Part shown: positions 13,955-59,392 of the stretch, piece after piece
How the letters are laid out: each line of letters begins with the position of its first letter
Numbering within the stretch: the stretch's first letter is position 1
Assembly: GCA_943846685.1 (NCBI GenBank)
Contig: OX044363.1
Span: 1,096,001-1,160,000, forward strand
DNA length: 64,000 bases
Reading direction: 5' to 3'
From: an uncultured Pseudomonadales bacterium
GTDB lineage: Bacteria > Pseudomonadota > Gammaproteobacteria > Pseudomonadales > Porticoccaceae
Notes under the pieces: generated by a model
The model's input: only the letters and a program-made list of their open reading frames with translations
Database searches by the model: none
What the model was told of the DNA's origin: nothing
Translations under genes and position numbers: made by a program

Positions 13955-14445
13955 TGGACACAGATGAAGAGCTGGTAAAAAGAGCCCTCAAAGGTGGGAA
14001 TCATCATTATGGGGTGCTTGTTCAACGCTATGCTGATTATCTGTTTGGCTTGGGTATGCGCCTGACTTCGGGTAATAGAGAACTTGCTGAGGATATCTCT
14101 CAGCAAAGTTTTCTCAAGTCTTATAGTTACCTTAAAAGCTTTGATTCTCGTAAGACCTATAAGTATTGGCTGACAGGAATTGCCGTCAATTGCTTTAAGG
14201 ATATGATTAAAAAAGATCAGAAATACACGGATTTAGACAGTGGCAGTGAGCCAAGCTATTCCCCCCAACTTGAAGGTAATACAGGTTTTTTTGATCTGAT
14301 TGCACCCTTGACTGAGGATGAAAAGATTCTTTTCACGCTAAAGTATATTTACGAGTATCAGATCAATGATATCGCCGATTTTTTAGACCTAAAACCTGGC
14401 ACGGTTAAATCTAAGATAAGCCGTGCTTTGGAGAAACTTAAATGA
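13954..14445 (+). CDS. ECF-type RNA polymerase sigma factor
   Basis: ECF sigma factors redirect RNA polymerase to small regulons. The 163-residue protein shows region 2 in the first half (YADYLFGLGMRLTSGNRELAEDISQQSFLKSYSYLKSF, including the DISQQSFL motif) and region 4 at the end (LTEDEKILFTLKYIYEYQINDIADFLDLKPGTVKSKISRALEKL), a helix-turn-helix for the -35 box. The start codon overlaps the preceding stop, and the last codons overlap the next gene by 4 bp, so three genes form one operon. The surrounding membrane proteins are candidates for control. Confidence 0.9.
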   Translation: MDTDEELVKRALKGGNHHYGVLVQRYADYLFGLGMRLTSGNRELAEDISQQSFLKSYSYLKSFDSRKTYKYWLTGIAVNCFKDMIKKDQKYTDLDSGSEPSYSPQLEGNTGFFDLIAPLTEDEKILFTLKYIYEYQINDIADFLDLKPGTVKSKISRALEKLK

Positions 14446-55400: not shown

Positions 55401-56419
55401 TTGTGCTCGAAGATGAAAATGGTGTCGAGATTGCCATGGCCAGAAGTCTTGAGAAGCTGCAGCAGGACTTTAAGCAGCAAATTAATAAGGGCCTAGAACA
55501 GGCCGCCGATCAGAACACTGAGCAGACCAGGACCCGGCAGGGAATCACCGAGTGGGACTTTGATGAATTGCCTGAAGAGGTGGCCTTAAAGCATGGCAAA
55601 ATAACCATCAAAGCCTGGCCAACACTGCGTGACTGTGGAGAGTCCGTATCTCTCGAAGTAATCGATAACCCGCTGCAAGCAGAAAAAATAAGCCGTCAGG
55701 GTCAGTTGCGATTGGCACTACTAAAAGGTCGCGATCAGGTTAAATATCTCACCAAGCACCTGCTGCGGGGTAAAGAGCTTGCAATCACCGCCGCCAAAAT
55801 TGGTGAGCGCAAACCGCTAGTTGATGCCCTGATCAGTGCCAGTTTTCAGCAGGCAATCTTTGCCAACCCCGAGGTGCTCAGAGAGCAGCAGCAATTTGAT
55901 CGTGCCTTTGAAGCGGGAATTGGCGATGTAGTGATGATTGCTCAGGAGAAGGGGCAGGTTATAGAGTCACTGCTGTTGCCTCTGCACGACACGCAAAAGA
56001 AGCTTAGAGCACTGGGTCTGCCAGCTATTTATGCCGCAGAGGATATTCGCAGTCAGTTGGATTGGCTGTTTAGTCGTGACAGCTTATCGACCATCACCAC
56101 CGAATCGATCCGGCAATATCCACGCTATATAAAAGCACTGCAGGTGCGTCTCGAAAAGCTCGCCGCTCAGGTCAGCAAAGATCGACAGCATATTGCCGAA
56201 CTACAGGTCCTTGTGGAGCCCTGTAAACTGGCACTGGTTGAAGATCAGCCACTCTCCTCGGAACTTGAGACAGCGCTGCGGGATTTTTACTGGCTGCTAG
56301 AAGAGTACCGCGTTTCGCTATTTGCCCAGCAGTTAAAAACCCGTGTTCCGGTATCCTTAAAGCGGCTGCAAAAACGCTGGGATGAAATTGAGGAGCAGTT
56401 GCGACGGTTTCGTGTTTAG
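52484..56419 (+). CDS. hrpA: ATP-dependent RNA helicase HrpA
   Basis: HrpA is a DEAH-box 3'-5' RNA helicase linked to rescue of stalled ribosomes in E. coli. The 1311-residue length matches the family. Motif I is GETGSGKTTQLPKICL (about 110-125), motif II DEAH in LIIDEAHERSLNIDFLMGYLK, motif III SATI, and motif VI QRAGRCGRVSEGVCYRLY. The helicase-associated and OB domains follow, then the DUF3418 C-terminal half (NLPEEVALKHGK region onward). Start MSTAQELN at 52484 follows dnaQ closely. The hvf operon follows. Confidence 0.97.
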   Translation: MSTAQELNTPPSTPQDFQRLKCLVEQSTSTRERFRLGRQLAELNKLAEQGKAITERWGKWHAALLKDQQQIEKRQRNLPALEYPDLPVSARAEEIAELISKHQVIVVAGETGSGKTTQLPKICLQAGCGVKGMIGHTQPRRIAARTVANRIAEELKVSLGQAVGYQVRFSDQSSPNSYIKLMTDGILLAEIQNDRFLSKYDTLIIDEAHERSLNIDFLMGYLKNLLPQRPDLKIIITSATIDVEKFSKHFNNAPIVEVSGRSFPVEVIYNHPDETETDRDQMIVDCLQDIQANQKQGDVLVFLSGEREIREVNLALKRAQLAHTEIVPLYARLSLAEQSKIFSAHRGRRVVLSTNVAETSLTVPGIRYVIDTGRARVSRYSFRTKVQRLPIEAISQASANQRAGRCGRVSEGVCYRLYSEDDFNGRSEFTDPEIVRTNLAAVILQMLHLKIGDIRSFPFVDAPDPRMISDGFKLLEELQVVTANGKLTALGKRIVHIPLDPRFARMLLEAAKNGCLSEVMIITTGLSIQDPRERPADKQQAADQSHKKWQEPNSDFISLLNLWRHFEEQRQQLSGNQYSRYCKANHVSYLRMREWRDLHHQVHSACRALKLTDNSKPAEADDIHRSLLSGLLGQVGILQEKWEFLGTRNRKFFIFPGSGLSKKPPKWVMAASLMETTKQFALTVAKIDSDWLEPLAAHLVKKTYSEPFYSIKSGQVMASERQTLFGLSIVENKRRVYGQVNPDEARRIFIQQALVEKGYRGKGDFYSENQKLVEELQALEDRFRRRDLLVEQQVIFEFYNERIPAGIYNLPLFEKWRKQAEASDPRLLKLEKEYLLLRGLSQEEQTQFPEIISYQGISYNLRYHFEPNHIEDGVSAVVPLPLLHQLPRYYFEWLVPGMLRDKCIALLKSLPKQTRRNFVPVPDYVDAFLLKARAQDRPLTEVLAEHLHKQTGITIPAEQWKPENLDAWYQMNFVLEDENGVEIAMARSLEKLQQDFKQQINKGLEQAADQNTEQTRTRQGITEWDFDELPEEVALKHGKITIKAWPTLRDCGESVSLEVIDNPLQAEKISRQGQLRLALLKGRDQVKYLTKHLLRGKELAITAAKIGERKPLVDALISASFQQAIFANPEVLREQQQFDRAFEAGIGDVVMIAQEKGQVIESLLLPLHDTQKKLRALGLPAIYAAEDIRSQLDWLFSRDSLSTITTESIRQYPRYIKALQVRLEKLAAQVSKDRQHIAELQVLVEPCKLALVEDQPLSSELETALRDFYWLLEEYRVSLFAQQLKTRVPVSLKRLQKRWDEIEEQLRRFRV

Positions 56420-56469
56420 TCTATTAATTGAGACTAAAAAGAGCCTTATTAAAAACTACCCTCAACAAC

Positions 56470-56497
56470 GGAACTTCGTATAAACTCATTTGTCAGA
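56470..56497 (+). promoter_or_regulatory. Candidate ECF-sigma promoter of the hvfABC operon
   Basis: GGAACTT at 56470-56476 and GTCAGA at 56492-56497 are 15 bp apart. This is close to the RpoE-type pattern GGAACTT-N15-GTCnnA. It lies 87 bp before the hvfA start in the only non-coding gap upstream. Related operons in other bacteria are often controlled by ECF factors, which adds weight. No sigma-70 pair of equal quality is visible. Confidence 0.6.
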
Positions 56498-56498
56498 A

Positions 56499-56533
56499 CT
56501 GCATCCCAAAACTAACTTGGAATTGGGATGCAG
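56499..56533. promoter_or_regulatory. 11-bp inverted repeat at the hvfA transcription start region
   Basis: The arms CTGCATCCCAA (56499-56509) and TTGGGATGCAG (56523-56533) are perfect and 13 bp apart. The left arm begins right after the ECF -10 box, so the repeat straddles the predicted start point. This favours a protein operator over a complete RNA hairpin. No T-run follows, so it is not a terminator. Confidence 0.6.
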
Positions 56534-56583
56534 GTAAAAATTGAATGATTAACCAGCTATTACCAACACATGGAGAAAGTCCA

Positions 56584-56919
56584 ATGAACAAACAGAATAT
56601 CAAACCTTTAGTTACTGCCGTAAGCGCAGCATTTCTCGCCACTGCAGCCATCTCAACGCCAGTGTTTGCCGCTGAAAACCCTTTCCAGGCCGATCAATTG
56701 CGTTCTGGCTATAACCTTGCTGACGGTCATGCCGAGGGTAAGTGCGGTGAAGGAAAGTGTGGCGAAGGTAAGGCTGAATCCGAAGGCAAGTGCGGCGAAG
56801 GCAAATGCGGTGAAGAGAAAGCCGAGTCTGAGGGCAAATGTGGTGAAGGCAAGTGTGGCGAAAGCAAAGCTGATGATGAAGGTAAGTGCGGTGAAGGCAA
56901 ATGTGGCGGCGCTGCGTAA
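56584..56919 (+). CDS. hvfA: HvfA-type (bufferin) RiPP precursor with eight EGKCG motifs
   Basis: The 111-residue precursor starts at the ATG that follows GGAGAAAG; the longer frame to 56545 is rejected. A Sec signal peptide (residues 1 to about 30, ending PVFAA) is followed by a short spacer (ENPFQADQLRSGYNLADGHA). The repeat region spans residues 51-108. It has eight EGKCG motifs in four pairs, with Cys at 54/59, 70/75, 86/91 and 102/107, an exact 16-residue (48-bp) period broken only by EGKAES, EEKAES and ESKADD. In Haemophilus HvfA, such Cys are converted by HvfB/HvfC to oxazolone-thioamide groups that bind copper. The same chemistry is inferred here. hvfB follows after 25 bp. Confidence 0.93.
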   Translation: MNKQNIKPLVTAVSAAFLATAAISTPVFAAENPFQADQLRSGYNLADGHAEGKCGEGKCGEGKAESEGKCGEGKCGEEKAESEGKCGEGKCGESKADDEGKCGEGKCGGAA

Positions 56920-56944
56920 TCATCTAATAAGAACACACTATTAA

Positions 56945-57808
56945 ATGGTTCAAGAAAAACAAAGCTACCCAGTTCAGGGGGCAGGTTTGGGATTAAGGCG
57001 GGCACTTTGTGGCCCGCTTTCTTCTGTGTCTCCCGAACAGGTTCAGTTTATGGAAGTAGCGCCAGAAAACTGGATTGATGTAGGTGGCCGTTACGGTGCG
57101 GTATTTCGAGAATACACCGAAAAATTTCCCTTTGTCCTGCATGGACTATCACTCTCAATAGGCTCCCCCTCACCACTTGACTGGGATTTATTGAAAGCTA
57201 TCAAAGCCTTTATGGCCGAACACTCGATTCGCTGTTACACCGAACATTTAAGCTATTGCAGCGACAGTGCCCATCTCTATGATCTGATGCCGATTCCCTT
57301 TACCGAAGAGGCTGTCGACTACGTGGCCGAGCGCATACTGCAGATACAGGATTTTCTCGGGCAGCGTATCGCCATGGAAAATGTCTCCTACTATGCCGCC
57401 CCACAGCAGGAAATGTCAGAGATCGACTTTACCAATGCAGTGCTTGAAAAAGCCGACTGCAAGCTGCTACTCGACGTGAATAATATTTACGTCAACAGTA
57501 TTAACCACAGTTACGATCCTCTCGAATTTCTTAAAGCATTGCCTGGCGAGCGCATTGCTTACGGCCATATTGCCGGCCATTACGACGAAGCTGAAGACCT
57601 GCGCGTCGATACCCATGGCGCCGATGTTATAGATCCGGTGTGGGCGCTTCTCGATGCGGCCTATCAGCAGTTTGGTGCTTTTCCGACACTGCTTGAGAGA
57701 GACTTTAATATCCCTCCGGTGGACGAGCTACTTAAAGAAGTTGAACAGATAAGAGAGCGGCAGGCCAAATACGCTGGCCGGCAAGCTCTAGCAGAGAATA
57801 TGGCATGA
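56945..57808 (+). CDS. hvfB: DUF692 multinuclear non-heme iron oxidase (HvfB/BufB)
   Basis: DUF692 (MNIO) enzymes use two or three iron ions and oxygen to modify cysteines of RiPP precursors. The 287-residue TIM-barrel protein keeps the candidate metal ligands: His66 (VLHGLSLS), Glu100/His101 (YTEHLSYCS), Glu145 (MENVSYY), Asp177 with Asn179/Asn180 (LLLDVNNIYVNSINH), His208 and His212 (YGHIAGH), Asp222/His224 (VDTHGADV) and Glu251 (LLERDFN). The start GLGLRRAL is typical. It lies between the precursor gene and hvfC, overlapping the latter by 4 bp. No strong ribosome site is seen, so coupling to hvfA translation is likely. Confidence 0.93.
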   Translation: MVQEKQSYPVQGAGLGLRRALCGPLSSVSPEQVQFMEVAPENWIDVGGRYGAVFREYTEKFPFVLHGLSLSIGSPSPLDWDLLKAIKAFMAEHSIRCYTEHLSYCSDSAHLYDLMPIPFTEEAVDYVAERILQIQDFLGQRIAMENVSYYAAPQQEMSEIDFTNAVLEKADCKLLLDVNNIYVNSINHSYDPLEFLKALPGERIAYGHIAGHYDEAEDLRVDTHGADVIDPVWALLDAAYQQFGAFPTLLERDFNIPPVDELLKEVEQIRERQAKYAGRQALAENMA

Positions 57809-58566
57809 CCAGAGATTCTCAAAAGCCATCCTTTCAACAGGCCCAGATAGAGTTTGCTGCTCATATTCGCAGCCCTGAGAGCAATCCAGCACCTCAGGGT
57901 ATTGAAGATCGTCGCCTGGATATCTACCGCAACTTGTTTTTCAATAATATCGAATCATTTATCGCCAATGGATTTCCAATCCTTAAATCGATCACCGATC
58001 CCGATCAGTGGACGGTTATGGTTCGCGATTTTATCCACCATCACCAGAGCCACAGCCCGTATTTTTTAGAAATAGGCAGCGAATTTTTAGACTATTTGCA
58101 AAATGAGCGTGAGCCTCTGGAAAACGACCCCGGGTTTCTTCTCGAACTGGCTCATTACGAATGGGTCGAGCTGGCGCTGGATACCTCGACAGTGGAATTT
58201 CCCGAGGCAAAAAGTGATGGCGATCTGCTCGACGACTGCCCGATAGTCTCACCGCTGGCTTGGCCTCTGAGCTACAGCTATCAGGTACAGATGATCGGTC
58301 CGGACTTTCAGCCGACAGCGGATCAAGCTGTCCCGACGCATCTAATTGTCTATCGCAACCGCAGTATGCAAATTGGCTTTATCGAAACCAATGCCACCAC
58401 CTGTCGACTACTTGAACTGTTCCGTGAAGAGAACCAAAGCGGTCGCGAAGCGCTATTAAAATTAGCTGCTGAGCTCAACCATCCCGACCCAGAGGCCTTG
58501 CTTCAATTCGGTCTCGATCTATTATTAGAGTTACGCAGTAAAGAGATTATTTGCGGTTTTCATTAA
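57805..58566 (+). CDS. hvfC: DUF2063 partner protein (HvfC/BufC)
   Basis: The 253-residue protein pairs with DUF692 enzymes and is thought to present the precursor peptide to them. The N-terminal DUF2063 helical domain shows DRRLDIYRNLFFNNIESFIANGFPILKSI (about 36-64) and FLLELAHYEWVELALD (about 109-125). The C-terminal part (HLIVYRNRSMQIGFIETNATTCRLLELF) is a winged-helix-like domain of the family. Its ATG overlaps the end of hvfB (ATGA). It closes the operon; no DoxX-like membrane gene, seen in some related loci, follows. Confidence 0.92.
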   Translation: MTRDSQKPSFQQAQIEFAAHIRSPESNPAPQGIEDRRLDIYRNLFFNNIESFIANGFPILKSITDPDQWTVMVRDFIHHHQSHSPYFLEIGSEFLDYLQNEREPLENDPGFLLELAHYEWVELALDTSTVEFPEAKSDGDLLDDCPIVSPLAWPLSYSYQVQMIGPDFQPTADQAVPTHLIVYRNRSMQIGFIETNATTCRLLELFREENQSGREALLKLAAELNHPDPEALLQFGLDLLLELRSKEIICGFH

Positions 58567-58663
58567 TTTTTTAACCTCTAGTCCCTCAGGCTGTGTACGC
58601 GGCTTTAATTGAGCAGTAGAATGCTTCGATATTCCCCTATGCACATGATTTGCGAGTAAATTT

Positions 58664-59392
58664 ATGTTTAACAAAAGCTTGGCAGCGGTTGCGCTATTGG
58701 TTTCAGGGCTGGTTTCAGGACTTGCAGCAATACCGGCTTGCGCCGATGACGACAGATTTGAAAATCTCAATCGAAAGATGTTTTATGTTAATGATCGCCT
58801 TGATCACTATGCTCTGCGCCCAGCGGCAGTCACTTACACCACAGTGATGCCAGATCCTCTGGAGAAAGGTATTGAGAACTTCTTTAGCAACCTCGATGAA
58901 GTGGGTAATGTAGTGAACGATCTTTTTCAGGGAAAATTCAATCAGGCAGCCCATGACAGTGGACGCTTTCTGCTCAACACCACCCTTGGTCTCGGCGGCC
59001 TCTTTGATGTTGCCAAGCGCGCTGGCCTGGAAAAAAGTGATGGCGAAGATTTTGGTCAGACTCTGGCAGTCTGGGGTGTGGGTGAAGGCCCTTATTTAAT
59101 GTTGCCGCTTATTGGTCCATCCACATTGAGGGATGCCCCGAGTAAATTCGTCGATAGTATAACCAGCCCATTTTCTTATGTAGATGATGTGCGAGCTCGA
59201 AATACTGCCAGAGGTGTCGATCTTTTGACTAAAAGAGTAGGCCTGTTAGAGCTCGATGATGTTATCTCTGGTGATAAGTATTTGTTTGTCCGTGATGTCT
59301 ACCTGCAGCGCAACAGATATCTGGTCAATGATGGGGCTATAGAAGACGATTTCGGTGATTTCGGTGATTTCGGTGATTTTGAAGATTATTGA
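58664..59392 (+). CDS. mlaA: MlaA/VacJ outer-membrane lipid asymmetry protein
   Basis: MlaA removes misplaced phospholipids from the outer leaflet of the outer membrane and passes them to MlaC. The 242-residue protein has a signal peptide and the core ENLNRKMFYVNDRLDHYALRPAA, NLDEVGNVVNDLFQGKFNQAAHDSGRFLLNTTLGLGGLFDVA, EDFGQTLAVWGVGEGPYLMLPLIGPSTLRDA. The expected lipobox is poor: the only Cys is in AIPACADDD (Cys26), so lipidation is doubtful. The C-terminus ends in Asp-Phe-Gly repeats encoded by a 9-bp tandem repeat (59348-59374). It is 97 bp after hvfC. Confidence 0.93.
   Translation: MFNKSLAAVALLVSGLVSGLAAIPACADDDRFENLNRKMFYVNDRLDHYALRPAAVTYTTVMPDPLEKGIENFFSNLDEVGNVVNDLFQGKFNQAAHDSGRFLLNTTLGLGGLFDVAKRAGLEKSDGEDFGQTLAVWGVGEGPYLMLPLIGPSTLRDAPSKFVDSITSPFSYVDDVRARNTARGVDLLTKRVGLLELDDVISGDKYLFVRDVYLQRNRYLVNDGAIEDDFGDFGDFGDFEDY

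Follow-up and report, generated by a model that had tools for sequence, protein, structure and literature searches.

An hvfABC captophorin operon from a SAR92-like marine lineage with a predicted ECF/sigmaE-type promoter and a predicted RNA hairpin in the first maturase codons

Operons of the hvfABC type encode a cysteine-rich precursor peptide (HvfA), the MNIO (DUF692) maturase that acts on it (HvfB) and a partner protein of this enzyme (HvfC). The copy found in the 64,000-nucleotide stretch of contig OX044363.1 analyzed here (the window), from an uncultured Porticoccaceae bacterium, raises the questions of what switches such an operon on and how it could make more precursor than enzyme. The best joint explanation of the locus, in which we have considerable confidence, is an EGKCG-type captophorin operon that is transcribed from a promoter of the extracytoplasmic function (ECF)/sigmaE type and carries, in the first codons of hvfB, a hairpin that would end the hvfA message. 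The locus is a further member of a known family and ordinary for that family; the hairpin and the ECF-type promoter are the parts deserving follow-up. Coordinates are collected in Table 1.

Matches to NCBIfam and Pfam models placed hvfABC among the EGKCG-type captophorin operons of the oxazolin/HvfA family. HvfA scored 65 bits against the KCG-pair domain NF050137 (cut-off 19.5), HvfB 444 bits against NF003818 (cut-off 360), and HvfC 309 bits against NF050145 (cut-off 142), with further matches of HvfC to DUF2063 (PF09836) and NGO1945_C (PF22106). By sequence, HvfB matched the MNIO structure PDB 3BWW (E 4e-76) and HvfC matched PDB 3DEE (E 1.7e-11), and the hvfB and hvfC frames overlap as ATGA, all in line with the original prediction of a DUF692 oxidase and a DUF2063 partner in overlapping frames. 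The candidate metal ligands of that prediction were also found: R18, R19, E41, H66, H101, E145, N179, N180, H208, D222, H224, E251 and D253 are all present in HvfB, and these 13 residues (candidate ligands plus the two Arg) show conservation of 97% or more among 93 distinct HvfB proteins, the window's included, with N179 and N180 both invariant. R18/R19 and D253/F254 were assigned by motif to R15/R16 and D249/F250 of FonB, residues near the substrate in the Lys-Cys class of MNIO enzymes described in PMC13097082. In HvfB of Haemophilus influenzae, N175, D242 and H244 are reported as essential (PMC13419390). D242/H244 correspond to D222/H224 here via the DTH motif, and N175 to N179 or N180. For residues beyond these equivalents, the naming as ligands follows the MNIO literature.

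Two observations weigh against this assignment. HvfA reached 74.2 bits against the HvfA equivalog NF050188, below its cut-off of 95; this miss is one of score, because the best stretch spans model positions 3–95 of 96. The operon also lacks a DoxX gene, the position after hvfC being taken by an mlaA-like gene, and the two DoxX matches in the genome both lie away from it. DoxX genes are common in hvf-type operons without being universal. The term "bufferin-type" proved imprecise: an HvfABC-type operon for a ribosomally synthesized and post-translationally modified peptide, copper-related by family, was supported by the model matches, but HvfA had no match in Pfam and is thus not a DUF2282 protein, and HvfB remained below the cut-off of the BufB model (258 bits versus 310).

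To what does the operon respond? An alignment of the upstream regions of genus relatives revealed TGAAACTTC or GGAACTTC, followed after ~15 nt by GTCAGAA or GTCTGAA, in most rows. A pattern scan for GAAACT or GGAACTT, 14–18 nt and GTC within 250 nt, with dinucleotide shuffles as the control, found this element in 18 of the 20 distinct loci from the genus (0.1 in shuffles) and in 24 of the 59 remaining ones (0.32 in shuffles). All 42 sites found in these 79 loci had a total length of 25, despite the five spacings that the pattern allowed. The choice of pattern followed the data, since a first, stricter version (6 of 80 loci, 0.54 expected) was loosened after the GAAACTT variant had been seen; the shuffles were rerun for the looser version. 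A wrong-spacing control (25–28) gave 3/20 and 5/59, above its own shuffles (0.1 and 0.18), and these matches may come from a second GTC ~9 nt downstream in some loci. A weight-matrix scan (18/20 and 30/59) was partly circular and was not relied on. The consensus for sigmaE of E. coli has GGAACTT as its −35 element and a −10 element near TCAAA (quoted in PMC2893595); the promoter predicted in the window has this −35 element exactly, with GTCAGAA as the −10 element. A sigma-70 promoter scan gave three sites, all on the minus strand, versus 2.7 in shuffles.

The genome contains, at C1:970966, a gene that we take to be rpoE-like, with presumed rseA- and rseB-like genes behind it and GAACTA-N15-GTC upstream. 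The exact pattern GGAACTT-N15..17-GTCNGA occurred once genome-wide, at hvfA (none in the reversed control), and RAACTT-N15..17-GTCAGA also once, at hvfA (three in the reversed control). The sigma assignment was weakened by the looser GRAACTT-N15-GTC, which had five sites versus 21 (10 and 11) in the reversed control and thus no enrichment; one of the four sites other than that at hvfA, GAAACTT-N15-GTC, lies directly before a presumably BepA-like gene. As the looser pattern was commoner in the reversed control, we make no claim of a regulon. Among 11 matches to sigma region 4 in the genome, seven besides the RpoE-like protein were sigma-factor-like and three response-regulator-like, and these seven further sigma-like genes could also be responsible for the hvfA promoter. 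Within the window, a Sigma70_r4_2 match at 14296–14439 (a 166-aa frame, ECF-like sigma factor) was one of ten over the cut-off genome-wide.

Transcription of hvfA thus most likely starts at this ECF/sigmaE-type promoter, as judged from the conserved upstream element, with a sigma assignment that is weak genome-wide. Because ECF control is reported for the homologous operons of H. influenzae (by RpoE2; PMC7907618) and Neisseria (by sigmaE; PMC2893595), the promoter class is unsurprising, and the inducer is a prediction: the operon would be expected to respond to oxidative or envelope damage and not to sense copper directly. Control by a CueR/CopR-like regulator, which would make this mainly a copper-stress system, appears unlikely to us. 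Copper responses are on record for a Caulobacter bufferin operon (PMC8224329) and the Legionella GIG operon (PMC5413113), and EGKCG peptides bind Cu(I); yet among the conserved elements upstream of hvfA in the genus, the strongest was of the ECF type, in a footprint that included no scan for CueR/CopR sites, and proteomics did not detect the proteins of the Microbulbifer homologue, whether copper (0.1–0.2 mM) was added or not (PMC12538549). Copper induction, as originally implied, is not supported by the promoter identified here.

Directly at the predicted transcript start, a 10-bp stem was conserved in position within the genus, with two-sided changes in two of nine pairs. Covariation among 13 genus sequences was weak (covariation term −0.01), making this a minor feature with a possible role in message stability. 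An Rfam scan of 56300–58700 gave no match at E ≤ 1.

The second question, that of the ratio between precursor and enzyme, led to the stem-loop in hvfB. Folds were compared with versions of each sequence recoded with synonymous codons of its own hvfB. Across the hairpin segments of 89 distinct hvfB genes, the mean z was −2.53, and 13 other offsets ranged from −0.54 to +0.38; the mean was −2.0 for 22 genus loci and −2.9 for 54 loci outside the genus, 72% of the latter having p < 0.05. The hairpin is thus supported by comparison, and an attenuator or 3′-end stabilizer that favors precursor over enzyme is the function we infer for it. It would mark the end of the hvfA message, either by terminating part of the transcripts or by shielding a processed 3′ end, and would keep the precursor in excess of its enzymes.

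Several fold results count against a functional stem. The window's own hairpin was only modestly stronger than its synonymous versions (z −1.8, p ~0.05), p < 0.05 was reached in just 15 of the 22 genus loci, and the coding stems mostly lack the T runs of a terminator, 76 of 89 having three or fewer T in the 8 bases past the core stem (the window has TTCTTCTG there). Given these T-poor stems, protection of the 3′ end is as likely as termination.

Could the stem be without function, a consequence of the encoded amino acids and of GC-rich codons? These residues (RR.L.GPL-like) are conserved, permutation within codon columns still paired 591 ± 5 of 801 cells compared with 640 observed, and six genus loci (L085, L087, L088, L089, L091 and L095) had no significant stem. 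We nevertheless consider this explanation improbable, since recoding with own codons gave weaker folds and just 454 ± 9 paired cells, the other offsets lay near zero, and the presence of the stem tracked the hvfA–hvfB gap in two sets of loci, as detailed below. There is a similarly small chance that the dyad is a DNA operator for a regulator rather than an RNA hairpin. An inverted repeat with a near-constant 4-nt center in many relatives would suit an operator, but the stem letters vary with pairing kept. At positions 12–23, base 1 of the third codon after Gly-Leu pairs with base 3 of the Gly codon, and this pairing is kept through change, G-T cells included (G-C 40, A-T 16, G-T 11, T-G 6 and T-A 5; n = 89). 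Moreover, operons with a long gap often carry their hairpin between the genes, in several cases with a T run.

The dependence on the gap was assessed with a limit of 95 nt between the hvfA stop and the GLRR codons and a fold limit of −15 kcal/mol, both set on the first set of loci after inspection and left unchanged for a second set that was fetched later. Folds of −15 kcal/mol or better were present in 60 of 61 short-gap loci compared with 6 of 20 long-gap loci in the first set (mean z −2.93 and −0.56), and in 32/36 compared with 7/15 in the second (mean z −2.73 and −0.71). These counts overstate the number of separate events, because related sequences are not independent. The second set comprised 80 matches in rank order down to G052, minus 11 already in the first set; G137, G339:C79, G361, G266 and G230 (near contig end) and all weaker matches were left out. 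Second-set loci with no recognized EGKCG precursor (n = 18) had a mean z of −0.92, and coding folds of −15 or better were seen in 2 of 8 first-set loci with no recognized hvfA, both at contig ends.

Where the gap was long, a hairpin often stood between the genes. For the 35 long-gap loci of the two sets, up to 150 nt downstream of hvfA gave a mean hairpin z of −2.71 against shuffles, with z < −2 in 22. The intergenic hairpin replaced the coding stem in Kangiella (L060/L070), Marinobacterium (L075), Exilibacterium (L056) and Pseudomaricurvus (L020), and several such hairpins were followed by T runs resembling an intrinsic terminator (e.g., L067, L075, L141, L142 and L187), although by a fixed count just 4 of the 35 had five or more T among the 8 bases that follow the final pair. 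Two observations do not fit the idea of a message-ending hairpin: in 6 of the 35 long-gap loci the coding stem did not reach −15 kcal/mol and no intergenic hairpin had z < −2, and 7 of the 18 second-set loci with no recognized precursor still had a coding fold of −15 or better.

With these points weighed, we lean toward a general arrangement in many gammaproteobacterial hvf operons, in which the maturase codons, over two Arg residues proposed as substrate contacts, contain a hairpin that terminates or shields the hvfA message; with enough space between the genes, the hairpin lies there instead. One stretch of bases would then set both the substrate-facing residues and the ratio of precursor to enzyme. 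We found no earlier report of such a hairpin in the literature on MNIO, DUF692 or bufferin genes, a coverage that is incomplete, so that one may exist. A related arrangement is described for ABC importers of Clostridia (PMC9045158), where internal terminators, long, GC-rich and with few U, set the stoichiometry of the importer by forming a stem-loop after the first, highly expressed gene for the substrate-binding protein; those stems lie between genes, whereas the stem here lies within the codons of the next gene.

The precursor itself agreed with the original description of an exported-looking peptide of 111 residues with eight EGKCG motifs in four pairs at a 16-residue period. The motifs start at residues 51, 56, 67, 72, 83, 88, 99 and 104 (Cys spacing 5, 11, 5, 11, 5, 11, 5), and every one of the eight EGKCG occurrences in the six frames of the window lies within hvfA. 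The N-terminus, MNKQNIKPLVTAVSAAFLATAAISTPVFA-AE, is signal-like as judged by eye. An alternative in-frame ATG is present at 56545; the start at 56584 is favored because of the GGAG directly upstream and the alignment of genus relatives. Tandem Repeats Finder (TRF) detected a 48-bp period in hvfA. The four 10-residue pairs are identical as protein, and their DNA differs pairwise at 3–7 of 30 bases, all silent, which argues against a fresh DNA duplication and suggests that selection acts on the peptide.

The spacing, which had been called exceptionally regular, is neat but not exceptional: strictly periodic pair arrays occur in 16 of 80 distinct full-length HvfA (a count that includes the window's), and 12 of these have at least four pairs. 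Five incomplete HvfA (L012, L014, L042, L067 and L101) and eight duplicates were left out of this set, and 14 of 107 loci had no recognizable HvfA, two of the 14 being DoxX loci. Cys runs at 5-residue spacing in the 80 proteins comprised 132 singles, 225 pairs and 20 triples, with no longer runs, compared with averages of 212, 98, 43 and 24 when the order of gaps was permuted within each protein; none of 2000 permutations reached 225 pairs. The pair is the preferred unit of Cys arrangement in HvfA, which is not proof of one metal per pair. This preference agrees with the two-Cys cassettes of Microbulbifer (PMC12538549) and with the 17-residue two-motif repeats described in PMC12452194. Variant units also occurred: one precursor (L019:3489-3926) has two EGKCG followed by eight EGSCG, with Ser in place of the Lys before Cys, and EGSCG or EGTCG units are found in some genus relatives (L085, L089 and L102). 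Another HvfA (L077:3401-3967) carries an EF-hand-like stretch, DADGDGSITKEEF, between EGKCG blocks, an internal position that differs from the C-terminal one in the fusions told of in PMC12452194.

By analogy with characterized homologues, we infer modification, export and copper binding of this HvfA. HvfC would bind the precursor and activate HvfB, an iron-dependent oxidase that would convert the Cys of each Lys-Cys-Gly to 5-thiooxazole, up to eight per chain; the modified precursor would then reach the periplasm through Sec, and copper(I) would be bound there by the thiooxazoles, probably by pairs of them. The 5-thiooxazole group was assigned in fontiphorin, oxazolin and gonophorin through alkylation-assisted nuclear magnetic resonance (NMR), with oxazolin reassigned and four H lost per EGKCG repeat of fontiphorin (PMC13097082). 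The group that first described oxazolin accepts this reassignment for HvfA and reports the full-length precursor, signal sequence included, as the preferentially modified form (PMC13419390). The oxazolone-thioamide chemistry of the original prediction has thereby been superseded. That the product is an unmodified metallothionein-like peptide, or carries methanobactin-style oxazolone-thioamides as in the first assignment of oxazolin (told in PMC13419390) and in NCBIfam model names that still carry it, is very improbable in view of these NMR results and of an HvfB score far under the cut-off of the MbnB equivalog TIGR04159 (37.6 bits versus 325).

One metal site per pair, also proposed originally, is plausible. 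Pairs are preferred, and up to four Cu were bound by a maltose-binding protein fusion of fontiphorin with seven 5-thiooxazole sites (PMC13097082); on the other side, the authors of that study suspect stochastic Cu binding by EGKCG products, and the 132 singles and 20 triples do not follow the rule. The copper role itself is uncertain, since the Microbulbifer operon was not detectably expressed and, when placed in E. coli, gave only slight protection from copper (PMC12538549).

Among known systems, the oxazolin/hvf operon of nontypeable H. influenzae is closely similar, with the same family models, HvfB and HvfC, paired EGKCG (three AEGKCGEGKCG motifs) and ECF sigma control (by RpoE2), a control that is predicted for the operon here. 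It differs in a precursor with six Cys rather than eight, in the DoxX-like HvfX that is absent from the operon here, and in its sigma factor, the small anti-sigma of which is a relative of ZAS proteins; the candidate sigma factor in the present genome is RpoE, accompanied by RseA/RseB-like genes. The bulbicupramide operon mmrABC of Microbulbifer, likewise from a marine gammaproteobacterium, has three genes and two-Cys cassettes; its products have between five and eight Cys within EGKCG units, with modification of all six in the one tested, and differ from HvfA here in cassette count and spacer sequence. The fontiphorin operon fonABC of Fontimonas thermophila is likewise a minimal MNIO-PME1-EGKCG operon with A, B and C only (PMC13097082), unlike the present one in having its seven modified sites grouped 2-3-2 rather than as four pairs. 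Bufferins 1 and 2 share the MNIO enzyme and the DUF2063 partner, have a Sec-exported Cys precursor, as is predicted here, and are tied to copper stress, but their precursors are of the DUF2282 or 6/12-Cys type, and Buf1 operons contain sigma/anti-sigma genes.

The marine host proposed originally was supported by the SAR92/Porticoccaceae-like lineage of the relatives. Within the best 80 of 555 confirmed relatives, the nearest named HvfB proteins came from Pseudomonadales and Porticoccaceae metagenome-assembled genomes (MAGs; 94 and 92% identity), and identity was 82% with SAR92 H231 and an HTCC2207 MAG. An MNIO match was found in 25 of 50 genus genomes, 23 of the close type (79–100% identity) and two at 34–35%. 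The operon is genuinely missing from some members of the genus, because a match was found in just 17 of the 30 genomes that are at least 90% complete. On the plus strand, hvfABC is flanked upstream by a helicase gene that we take to be hrpA-like from its domains, and downstream by the mlaA-like lipoprotein gene. Of the 23 close loci, 20 have hrpA on the upstream side and 21 have mlaA on the downstream side; the remainder are short loci that ended first. An HvfA was recognized in 21 of the 23, its repeat part containing between 4 and 10 Cys. The kept flanks and varying Cys number suggest that the operon is an old resident of the lineage in which the number of cassettes changes. The two loci with a distant MNIO only (L104 in G035 and L105 in G013; 35 and 34% identity, open frame of 525 aa) showed no EGKCG precursor in the stretch examined, L105 starting almost at the gene so that its upstream side is not visible.

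Table 1. Features of the hvfABC locus, in window positions.
Feature	Position	Strand	Details
ECF/sigmaE-type promoter (predicted)	56470..56498	+	GGAACTT 56470-56476, 15 nt, GTCAGAA 56492-56498; phylogenetic footprint and pattern scan
5′ untranslated region stem-loop at predicted transcript start	56500..56532	+	TGCATCCCAA/TTGGGATGCA; fold z −4.5 (56500-56540)
hvfA, precursor gene	56584..56919	+	111 aa; signal-like N-terminus, leader motif NPFQADQLRSGYNLA, eight EGKCG
hvfB, MNIO (DUF692) maturase gene	56945..57808	+	287 aa; PF05114, E 1e-103
Predicted RNA hairpin in the hvfB codons for RRALCGPL, T-rich stretch after	56995..57020	+	AAGGCGGGC-loop-GCCCGCTTT; pattern scan, recoding tests
hvfC, DUF2063/RRE partner gene	57805..58566	+	253 aa; PF09836, PF22106

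An excess of precursor over enzyme in such operons would find a simple, testable explanation in the hairpin. Should this explanation hold, control of the precursor-to-enzyme ratio would be lost from codon-optimized hvfB genes in heterologous work. The locus also brings a SAR92-like marine lineage into a peptide family of disputed role, a dispute exemplified by the Microbulbifer homologue, which binds copper and was not seen to be copper-induced (PMC12538549). To this dispute the ECF/sigmaE-type promoter predicted in many relatives adds a testable answer, namely that the trigger may be envelope or oxidative damage and not copper itself.

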